Assembly (NCBI RefSeq): GCF_900090235.1
Contig: NZ_LT607750.1
Span: forward strand, 5,757,001 to 5,821,000
DNA from: Micromonospora echinaurantiaca
Lineage (GTDB): Bacteria > Actinomycetota > Actinomycetes > Mycobacteriales > Micromonosporaceae
Direction of reading: 5' to 3'
DNA length: 64,000 nucleotides
Shown here: positions 29,618-31,495 of the stretch, piece by piece
Numbering within the stretch: the stretch's first letter is position 1
Layout: the number at the start of each line of letters is the position of its first letter
Translations under genes and position numbers: made by a program
Notes under the pieces: generated by a model
Databases searched by the model: none
What the model saw: the letters and a program-made list of their open reading frames with translations, nothing else
Told to the model about the DNA's origin: nothing

Positions 29618-30463
29618 ATGGCGTCGAGGATCGCGGTGCTCGGGCGGGGACTCGTGCCGGCCGGGGAGCCGGTGCTGCGCGGTGACGACCTGGGTGTGCT
29701 GCGCGGCGACGGGCTCTTCGAGACGATGCACCTGCGGGGCGGCCGGCCCTGGCTGCGCGACGAGCACCTGGCCCGGATGGCCCGCGCCGCGGCGGCCGTG
29801 GAGCTGACGCTGCCGCCCGCCGAGGCGCTGGTCGAGCTGCTGGACACCATCTGCGCCGACTGGCCCGCCGAGGTGGAGGGCGCGCTGCGGCTGGTCTGCA
29901 CCCGGGGCCCGGAGGACGGCGGGCCGCCGACCGTCTACGCCACGCTGGCCGAGGTGCCGGCCGCGGCCAAGGCCGCCCGCCGGGACGGGATCAGCGTGGC
30001 GACGCTGCCGCTCGGCGTGCCGGCGGTGGCCCGGACCGGCCTGGACTGGCTGCCCGCCGGGATCAAGTCGACGTCGTACGCGGTGAGCACCGCGGCCCGC
30101 CGCTGGGCGCGGCGGGCCGGCGTGGACGACGTGCTCTGGGTCTCCAGCGACGGGTACGCCTTGGAGGGGCCCACCGCCAACGTGGTCTGGCTGGCCGGCG
30201 ACACGCTCTGCACGGTGCCCGCCGCCGACACCGGCATCCTGCCCGGCACCACCGCCGCCTGGCTGCTCGCGCACGCCCACCAGCTGGGTCTGGCGGCTGC
30301 CGAGCGCCTGGCCACCCCGGCCGAGCTGGCCGCCGCCGACGGCGTCTGGTTCACCTCGTCGGTGCGCGGCCTCACCCGCCTGCGCACCCTCGACGACACC
30401 GACCTCCCCGACTCCCCCCTGACCCCCCACCTCCACACCCTCCTCTCCTTCCCCCTCCCCTGA
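29618..30463 (+). CDS. pabC: aminodeoxychorismate lyase / class IV aminotransferase
   Basis: The 281-aa fold-type IV PLP enzyme probably converts 4-amino-4-deoxychorismate to p-aminobenzoate for folate synthesis. LRGDGLFETMHLRGG is the N-terminal family motif, Lys150 in AGIKSTSY binds PLP, and EGPTANVVW plus TPDTGILPG-like AADTGILPGTT are present. A branched-chain or D-amino-acid aminotransferase activity cannot be excluded. TACGCT lies 8 nt before the ATG. It is divergent from Fur and corresponds to Rv0812 in the mycobacterial order. Confidence 0.88.
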   Translation: MASRIAVLGRGLVPAGEPVLRGDDLGVLRGDGLFETMHLRGGRPWLRDEHLARMARAAAAVELTLPPAEALVELLDTICADWPAEVEGALRLVCTRGPEDGGPPTVYATLAEVPAAAKAARRDGISVATLPLGVPAVARTGLDWLPAGIKSTSYAVSTAARRWARRAGVDDVLWVSSDGYALEGPTANVVWLAGDTLCTVPAADTGILPGTTAAWLLAHAHQLGLAAAERLATPAELAAADGVWFTSSVRGLTRLRTLDDTDLPDSPLTPHLHTLLSFPLP

Positions 30464-30488: not shown

Positions 30489-30543
30489 GATCATGAAGTT
30501 GTTACCGCGACACGCCGAGGCGGGCGACAACAACTTCATGATC
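30489..30543. terminator. palindromic hairpin between convergent genes (TTGATCATGA family, copy 2)
   Basis: GATCATGAAGTTGTT (30489-30503) and AACAACTTCATGATC (30529-30543) are perfect 15-bp arms around a 25-nt loop. The outer ATCATGA/TCATGAT sequence is shared with the element at 3517-3577. It lies between the convergent pabC and nitrobindin genes. Confidence 0.6.
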
Positions 30544-30563: not shown

Positions 30564-31157
30564 TCAGCCGGCTACGCGGGTGAGGCGGGCGGAGAGGTGG
30601 GGCGAGAGGCCGTGGCCGACGGCGGCCATCTCCTGGGCGTAGAGCAGGGCGCCCTCGACGATGCCGAAGAGCCGGTGGCCGGCGGTGACCTCCTTGGCGG
30701 TGGCCGTACGCACCACCGCGTCGGTGACGAACTCGACCTGGGTGCCGGTGCGCCGGCCCAGGTGGAGCTCCATCACGCCGGTCGGCGTGGTCATCAACGC
30801 CTCCAGCTCGTCGGTGGCCCGGTCGTCCTTGAGGACCGGGCGCCACCAGCCGACTTCACGACCGGCCGGGCGGACCGGCCTGCTCTGCTCGTCGAGGATC
30901 CACGCCCGGGACTCGTAGAACAGGAACGGCCGGCCGTCGTGGCTGATCCGGATCTCCTGCGCGAAGTCGAAGTCCTCGATGGTGGGGAAGCCGCCCCGAC
31001 CCCGGCCGCGCCACACGCCGATGTACGGCAGCAGACCGTCCAGCGTGGGATGCAGCTTCGGACCGACCCGCAGGTCGTGGCTCTCCTCGTACGGGTACGG
31101 GTCGACCGGCGGCGCGTTCAGCCACGGCGGCGGCTGCAGCGGGTTCTCGTCGCTCAC
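30564..31157 (-). CDS. nitrobindin-like heme-binding beta-barrel protein (FABP/DUF1794 family)
   Basis: The 197-aa protein matches bacterial nitrobindins, which bind ferric heme and isomerise peroxynitrite to nitrate. The family GxWxGxG motif appears as GVWRGRGRGGFPT near residue 47, and the proximal His is expected in the C-terminal VGHGLSPHLSARL. The GTG at 31157 is preceded by GGAGAGGGGCGA. It corresponds to Rv0813c. Just upstream is an array of 59-bp repeats that separates it from a 37-aa membrane protein gene on the same strand. Confidence 0.88.
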   Translation of the reverse strand: MSDENPLQPPPWLNAPPVDPYPYEESHDLRVGPKLHPTLDGLLPYIGVWRGRGRGGFPTIEDFDFAQEIRISHDGRPFLFYESRAWILDEQSRPVRPAGREVGWWRPVLKDDRATDELEALMTTPTGVMELHLGRRTGTQVEFVTDAVVRTATAKEVTAGHRLFGIVEGALLYAQEMAAVGHGLSPHLSARLTRVAG

Positions 31158-31215
31158 CGGTTCACTCGCCCCTCTCCGTCGGTGACCGCGCCGGCTGGCA
31201 CGCGCTCCCCTGTCG

Positions 31216-31386
31216 CCTTCGTTCGCGACTGCGGGGCTCGCAAACCCGGCTCGCTCCTCGCGCTCACCGTGCCACCCTCGTTCGCGACTGCGGGGCTCGC
31301 AAACCCGGCTCGCTCCTCGCGCTCACCGTGCCACCCTCGTTCGCGACTGCGGGGCTCGCAAACCCGGCTCGCTCCTCGCGCTCACC
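31216..31386. repeat. three tandem copies of a 59-bp intergenic repeat
   Basis: Unit boundaries are 31216-31274, 31275-31333 and 31334-31386 (last copy cut to 53 bp). The copies are identical apart from one base at 31218. Read on the minus strand each unit opens with GGTGAGCGCGAGGAGCGAGC. The array ends exactly at the TGA of a 37-aa gene (31382-31384). The octamer CGCTCACC occurs at 31379-31386 and again at 31151-31158, the start codon of the nitrobindin gene. There is no spacer sequence, so this is not CRISPR. Confidence 0.9.
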
Positions 31387-31495
31387 AACGTCCTCTCGAT
31401 ATGCGTACCGCAACGTAGACCAGGCCACCGGCGAGCGCGCCCAGGCCGGCGACCAGCAGGCTCACGAACCCGATCTCGGTGACCATCCCGGCCAT
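31382..31495 (-). CDS. 37-aa single-span membrane miniprotein
   Basis: ATG at 31495 opens a 37-codon frame with one clear transmembrane helix (GFVSLLVAGLGALAGGLVYV, residues about 9-28) and a basic C-terminus (RISRGRW). Start-stop length, hydrophobicity and location just upstream of the nitrobindin gene argue for a real gene. Its stop codon is the TGA within GGTGAGCG, the same octamer that opens the nitrobindin gene, suggesting the two once overlapped by GTGA before the 59-bp repeats were inserted. ATG at 31486 is an alternative start. No family recognised. Confidence 0.5.
   Translation of the reverse strand: MAGMVTEIGFVSLLVAGLGALAGGLVYVAVRISRGRW

Follow-up and report, generated by a model that had tools for sequence, protein, structure and literature searches.

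The DNA considered here is a stretch of 64,000 nucleotides from Micromonospora echinaurantiaca (contig NZ_LT607750.1, positions 5,757,001 to 5,821,000), referred to as the window, and its subject is an array of 59-bp repeats that lies between two genes on the minus strand. The upstream gene encodes a membrane miniprotein of 37 amino acids, for which no Pfam match was found, and the downstream gene encodes a nitrobindin, the protein of which is a 96% match to a Micromonospora homologue. Pfam matches for the neighbouring genes included nitrobindin (PF08768) and DsrE (PF02635). Three whole units, followed by a 51-bp tail, separate the two genes (Table 1), and Tandem Repeats Finder reports the array at 31201-31386, with a period of 59, 3.2 copies and 96% matches. 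An earlier reading of the sequence alone had placed the array at 31216-31386; this is borne out to within a few bases, the whole units occupying 31209-31385.

The octamer CGCTCACC, which that sequence-only reading had noted at the nitrobindin GTG and at the miniprotein TGA where the array ends, is present at the nitrobindin start (31151-31158) and also opens all three units, each of which begins with GTGAGCG. The array reaches the stop codon of the miniprotein, as had been claimed, the TGA (31382-31384) being part of the GTGA of unit 1. It is apparent that a chain of GTGA overlaps runs without a break from the miniprotein through units 1 to 3 to nitrobindin, at offsets of 0, 59, 118 and 228. 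As 59 is 3×20−1, the TGA that closes the small open reading frame (ORF) of a unit, 20 codons on, overlaps the next GTG; the third ORF, 37 codons long, crosses the tail and has its stop within nitrobindin's GTGA (110 is 3×37−1). An 18-base motif from the 5′ end of the unit occurs exactly in the window only at the three units, and at two more places with three mismatches. The tail was considered as a decayed fourth unit and this was rejected, its score against the best unit being 17 and 178 of 200 shuffles scoring as high. No known RNA family reached its gathering score between positions 30000 and 33000 of the window, and no promoter or terminator was found inside the array.

Table 1. Features of the junction between the miniprotein and nitrobindin genes (window positions), and sites of a second repeat family in the same genome (genome positions)
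Feature	Position	Strand	Remark
Upstream gene, 37-aa membrane miniprotein (ATG...TGA), stop within first GTGA	31382..31495	-	
Unit 1, 59 bp	31327..31385	-	
Unit 2, 59 bp	31268..31326	-	
Unit 3, 59 bp; departs from units 1 and 2 only near 3′ end	31209..31267	-	
Tail, 51 bp, unit 3 to nitrobindin	31158..31208	-	unit 3 + tail = 110 bp = 3n-1
Small ORF 1, 20 codons, GTG...TGA	31323..31385	-	chain offsets 0, 59
Small ORF 2, 20 codons, GTG...TGA	31264..31326	-	chain offsets 59, 118
Small ORF 3, 37 codons, stop overlapping nitrobindin GTG	31154..31267	-	chain offsets 118, 228
GTGA junction, miniprotein / unit 1	31382..31385	-	
GTGA junction, unit 1 / unit 2	31323..31326	-	
GTGA junction, unit 2 / unit 3	31264..31267	-	
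GTGA junction, small ORF 3 / nitrobindin	31154..31157	-	
Shine-Dalgarno-like GAGGGTGG, tail of unit 1 (equivalent place in unit 2)	31331..31338	-	sequence
Downstream gene, nitrobindin (THAP4-like heme-binding, PF08768), start GTG	30564..31157	-	Pfam match
Second-family sites (L347-L360), own genome	51349, 247563, 594130, 1070523, 1176142, 1321894, 3992403, 4045327, 5451743, 5458946, 7140415		

The unit is not confined to this locus. A search of the whole M. echinaurantiaca genome with a 23-base core, allowing up to three mismatches, gave 40 matches, and the reversed control gave none, which puts the repeat well outside chance expectation; a profile search (E below 0.01) identified 37 sites. 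When four relatives are added, 161 profile hits fall into 106 sites, 37 in the own genome and 69 in the others. The regions searched were those around BLAST matches to the repeat, together with part of the weaker pattern matches. In the own genome, eight pattern matches at three mismatches were left aside, as were two BLAST matches that fell in the miniprotein portion; for the relatives, 60 regions were fetched out of the 67 counted in the listed rows of four genomes, and at least three further genomes with listed rows were not included. Arrays of two to four units occur in five genomes, and the core is strongly conserved across 80 distinct units. Ten of the 35 listed downstream genes were analysed, and no relation is seen among their families (hydrolase, glycosyltransferase, ketoacyl synthase, FGE-sulfatase, NUDIX, shikimate kinase, AAA_26, transporter, LytTR regulator and AIR carboxylase).

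Placement was determined with a simple codon-model gene caller, the stop positions being independent of its choice of starts. The element has the same orientation as the downstream gene at 104 of the 106 sites, and at 81 of them (25/37 own, 56/69 in the four relatives) the stop codon of an upstream co-directional gene lies exactly in the element's GTGA; at three others it lies at position 13, in the second GTGA of the element. This agrees with the earlier proposal that copies are tied to start/stop junctions and are not randomly scattered. For comparison, a four-base overlap was present in 47 of 229 neighbouring co-directional pairs in the own-genome regions. The first seven bases of the element are GTGAGCG at 89 of the 106 sites. 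Manual reading of the own genome placed 27 of the 37 sites at GTGA, a figure that takes in the BioD site and the window's miniprotein, which the caller had missed; the others comprised three at the second internal GTGA, four at a start codon where the genes do not overlap, one that the upstream gene reads through and two away from any such junction. None of the 37 was flagged as lying inside a called gene. At three sites (L124, at 1151334, L263 and L271) the upstream gene apparently reads through the element, which then forms a C-terminal extension to the original ATGA.

Sites lacking the element were found at several orthologous junctions. Across three junctions other than that of nitrobindin, a plain ATGA or GTGA overlap is present in 53 of 57 element-free relatives. 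At the ketoacyl synthase (KAS) junction, 22 of 30 rows have the plain DTGA (ATGA or GTGA) overlap and eight are occupied; at BioD, 18 of 29 are plain, nine are occupied and two carry inserts of 14 and 32 bases, both 3n−1; at the third junction, 13 of 16 are plain, one is occupied and two contain another insert (80 and 81 bases, the latter not 3n−1). The KAS and BioD counts are from manual reading, as the automatic count misses read-through cases (L263, L271) and changed cores (L262, L301) and undercounts the units of L276; seven rows of the third junction were settled separately, and one BioD locus at a contig end (L259) was dropped. Empty relatives read, for example, gcgccATGACG at BioD, where the own genome has gcgccGTGAGCG...gcgcATGACC, and at KAS occupation changes gatcATGACC to gatcGTGAGCG...gtcATGACT. 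The 5′ GTGA thus appears to be the element's own, the original DTGA remaining on the right. At the 44 sites that passed the filters for this comparison (62 of the 106 fell outside), the left GTGA and the right start are preceded by an identical base in 28 (14.6 expected) and by an identical pair of bases in 20 (6.5 expected). These matching bases look like a duplication of one to four bases of the target.

The nitrobindin junction was followed more widely. The nitrobindin protein served as query for ortholog loci, of which the best 80 of 108 were taken (mostly Micromonospora and Salinispora), and 79 of these could be parsed, giving 80 rows with the window; L117 was dropped as no anchor was found. 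The start motif of the miniprotein is present in all 81 rows compared. No unit is present in 34 of the 80 rows, one in 32, two in 11 and three in three. The sequence-only reading had predicted that relatives without the array would keep no long spacer, which is the case in all 34, and that they would overlap by GTGA, which holds in part: 13 have the plain overlap (spacing 0), and the genes of the other 21 sit 3 to 9 bases further apart (8 in nine rows, 9 in five, 3 in six and 4 in one). The distance is exactly 59 bases in 27 of the 32 single-unit rows, and in some rows a unit stands beside a short 8-base GTGANNNN step (67 = 8+59, 126 = 8+59+59). A strict DTGA chain is kept in 43 of the 46 occupied rows, the failures being L086, L089 and L118. 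On a quick tree built from flanking DNA with the repeat excluded, presence and absence require at least 19 changes over the 80 rows, 15 of which are forced by well-supported branches, as against 26.1 for shuffles; occupancy of the site is therefore subject to turnover, although partly inherited.

The length of the element is biased in frame. At the 68 single-unit sites with a co-directional gene, it is 3n−1 in 57, 3n in six and 3n+1 in five. A path was then defined as a series of ORFs joined by DTGA or TGATG-like overlaps, or by in-frame fusion, from unit 1 to the downstream gene. Two of the 106 sites, without a co-directional downstream gene, were excluded; in 95 of the remaining 104 the path reaches the downstream gene, and in 94 it does so near the called start. 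As a control, one base was removed in silico from the last unit, after which 31 paths ended near the start and a further 15 deep inside the gene (46 at any depth); addition of one base left 84 near the start and four deep (88 at any depth), and in the single-unit subset the added base turns 47 of 51 sites into in-frame N-terminal fusions. The 51 natural single-unit sites with the upstream stop at GTGA comprise 47 overlaps (TGATG-like forms allowed), three fusions and one site with neither. Two lengths co-vary: that from the start of the unit to the end of the core, mostly 45, 43 or 40, and that of the remainder, mostly 14, 16 or 17. Last or only units (n=82) are 3n−1 in 64 cases, 3n in 12 and 3n+1 in six; when tails were permuted, the mean at 3n−1 was 36.1, and none of 20000 permutations reached 64. 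This test left out 24 of the 106 sites (10 without a core, 12 with the start outside 5-30 bases and two without a gene).

The tails resemble ribosome-binding sites. At 44 single-unit sites, the 17 bases that end three before the downstream start pair with the 3′ end of 16S rRNA at a mean of −10.0 kcal/mol, whereas shuffled sequences average −7.0 and a set of 109 plain four-base overlaps −9.0. The element seems to bring a usable Shine-Dalgarno sequence.

The distribution of the unit was assessed using its exact core. This was found in 60 of 61 genomes of the genus, at 0 to 56 copies each, G015 having none and G043 two (the reversed control gave none), in 27 of 81 genomes (16 of 44 genera) drawn from the family, and in two of 246 genomes drawn from the phylum, both of which are within the genus. 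A BLAST search with one unit (66-base query) of 200 genomes from the order matched 24, every one of them from Micromonosporaceae. The exact core gave no hits in viral contigs.

A second family of repeats was found by way of inserts in two relatives (GTGAACGAGCG...). Its unit is 80 bp long and opens with ATGAGCGAGCGCAGCGAGCGAA or a GTGA form of it; 14 pattern matches in the own genome correspond to 11 sites (Table 1). The chain to the downstream gene is present at all 11 (seven sites have 80 bases, three have 80+80 and one has 80+53), and the tandem spacing of 80 bp is likewise 3n−1. An upstream coding frame ends in the DTGA at eight of the 11; at L347 and L357 an apparent further unit precedes the second-family unit, and L350 is without such an upstream frame. 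In L323 and L326, inserts of 81 and 80 bases, with the sequence GTGAACGAGCGTAGCGAGCGAAC, lie upstream of the ortholog of L130:1538-3487, where the own genome has the 59-bp element, one junction being used by different families.

We consider it probable (about 0.83) that the array consists of non-autonomous dispersed elements resembling the mycobacterial interspersed repetitive units (MIRUs) reportedly described by Supply et al. in 1997, which insert upstream of DTGA and whose 3n−1 frame carries translational coupling onward. Insertion would take place immediately 5′ of the DTGA that forms the four-base overlap of two co-directional genes, and the element's own 5′ GTGA would provide a new stop for the upstream gene. 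The body of the element would supply an open frame, with a total length that is mostly 3n−1 (59, 56 or 62; rarely 50, 53 or 65), and a Shine-Dalgarno-like tail, and this frame would terminate in the downstream gene's original DTGA. For that reason a ribosome could end the upstream gene, re-initiate in the small ORF, terminate there and re-initiate downstream, and both insertion and tandem growth by whole units would then be nearly neutral for expression. The sequence-only reading had envisaged an element that separates coupled genes without breaking either frame; the frames are indeed kept, but the coupling is apparently not lost, being carried on through the small ORF of 3n−1 length. Judged from sequence, the small ORFs would be translated, with coupling presumably kept in quantity as well, and the elements may have spread through transposition in trans that duplicates a few bases of the target.

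Several observations weigh against this interpretation. After removal of one base, 22 of the 51 single-unit sites still pass through another overlap, and the path test is therefore lenient. The main subfamilies (45+14, 40+16 and 43+16) are inherited and make up most of the length co-variation, so the frame counts are not independent events; counted as distinct length classes, 3n−1 accounts for only nine of 21 (with filtering, nine of 17), a proportion that by itself gives no evidence. Units in tandem may also be spaced by 60, 57, 61 or 63 bases; at these, the array forms one ORF, an internal GTGA is used, or the element is fused to the downstream protein. Two of the 37 own sites, L139 (5325192) and L145 (6008342), are not at a stop/start junction. 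Finally, no mobilizing enzyme was identified, the genome's single Y1 transposase gene lying about 35 kb from the nearest copy (the one Y1_Tnp match is at 2716106, the copy at 2751483).

Two groups of these sites call for separate mention. L139 and L145 have altered 5′ ends (GCGCGAG and GTGCGCG) and are possibly decayed or relocated copies. In G021_L218, G034_L191 and G000_L140, the arrays are in frame with the downstream gene and predict an N-terminal extension, so that the annotated starts may be incorrect.

Short dispersed repeats at gene boundaries are also known in the form of repetitive extragenic palindromes (REP) and REPINs, which are associated with RAYT transposases, and the elements might be of this type, or miniature inverted-repeat transposable elements (MITEs), moved by a transposase acting on hairpin ends or terminal inverted repeats, with DTGA as a mere site preference. 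Their dispersal in many copies and the short duplication-like match beside the insertion would fit, but this reading is improbable. A single unit folds no better than its shuffles (z 0.39), with z of about −1.7 for two longer stretches; an alignment fold lies some three standard deviations below column shuffles, a weak control in which dinucleotides are destroyed, and RNA structure was accordingly given no weight. No inverted repeat joining the two ends of a unit was found, nor the terminal inverted repeats of a MITE, nor the conserved palindrome of REP/REPIN, and no Y1 transposase is near the copies. A RAYT-type transposase as mobilizer is unsupported, the sole Y1 gene being remote from them. 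In addition, placement is tied to the stop/start overlap and to reading frame, unlike that of REP/REPIN, and site preference alone does not account for the co-variation of length to 3n−1, although inheritance of subfamilies might.

It is less probable still, and in our view quite unlikely, that the array is a regulatory leader of the host, a chain of short upstream ORFs kept as an attenuator or otherwise to tune translation of the downstream gene. The Shine-Dalgarno-like tails and the strong conservation of the core would be expected of such a leader, but the presence of the element flips often at nitrobindin, it is missing from most of the relatives examined at the three other junctions, and the downstream genes analysed share no family. 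The remaining alternative, a variable-number tandem repeat that arose by replication slippage of local sequence and spread by gene conversion without any insertion mechanism, fits the near-identical tandem units at several loci and is otherwise very hard to reconcile with single copies at many unrelated genes, clean empty sites and matching bases at both ends.

The MIRU-like interpretation rests on a number of shared features. The available part of a 2025 review (PMC12548453) describes insertion of MIRUs at start codons with coupling through four-base overlaps, and the 77- and 53-bp units given in PMC4213456 and PMC2453075 are both 3n−1, the rule of the 59-bp element. The latter also consists of short units, single or in tandem, at many loci; it lies between co-directional genes in their orientation; its ORF overlaps its neighbours by four bases (47/51 single-unit sites, 43/46 occupied nitrobindin rows); and it is inserted at a DTGA or start codon, the element-free forms having a DTGA overlap in 53 of 57 relatives at three junctions and in 13 of 34 at nitrobindin. 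It differs in belonging to another bacterial family, with no sequence match seen outside Micromonosporaceae in the sampled genomes, and is set apart by the 0 to 56 exact cores per genome, the empty sites in many species, the Shine-Dalgarno-like tail and the presence of two element families side by side. The range of MIRUs is given, in the accessible portions of these sources, as Mycobacterium leprae and the M. tuberculosis complex only (PMC4213456) or as many mycobacteria (PMC12548453); in the portions available, MIRUs are said to appear mobile and likely to keep expression, neither being demonstrated there. As the likeness established is that of the features tested, the 59-bp repeat is filed as a MIRU-like variant of Micromonosporaceae and not as a MIRU proper.

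Other known repeats are less similar. The Rickettsia palindromic elements are frame-preserving repeats that lie inside genes, where none of the 37 own-genome sites was flagged. The BOX, RUP and SPRITE repeats of pneumococcus are also non-autonomous and dispersed, and some supply a stop codon or encode ORFs, but a rule of four-base overlap at both ends is not described in the part of PMC3049150 available. In a literature search mostly without subscription papers, no title among the matches listed, those for Micromonospora and Salinispora included, names these repeats; among the matches listed, the core sequence occurred only in work on DNA methyltransferases, and the term 'MIRU-like' only in work on Trichodesmium.

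Elsewhere in the window, a perfect inverted repeat with 14-base arms (GATCATGAAGTTGT ... ACAACTTCATGATC) occupies 30489-30543; it closely follows an aminotransferase class IV gene, which ends at 30463, and precedes the stop of the convergent nitrobindin gene at 30564.

MIRUs underlie the strain typing of tuberculosis. The chances appear about even that the repeats described here belong to a general class of actinobacterial selfish elements, with at least two families of dissimilar sequence in one genome, which would recognize DTGA overlaps, duplicate a few bases and be selected for 3n−1 length as a coupled mini-cistron at sites of termination and re-initiation; MIRUs would then represent this class in mycobacteria, and its turnover would be continuing in environmental relatives. 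The unit also bears on doubtful gene starts, as in the 3n frame it would form an N-terminal extension, which opens MSARSEPG in the unit ORF. The family shows a clear frame bias, reaches tens of copies in many genomes and is naturally absent from junctions in dozens of species. Its hosts are Micromonosporaceae amenable to culture, so how it inserts, how it chooses targets and whether translation stays coupled can be tested directly.
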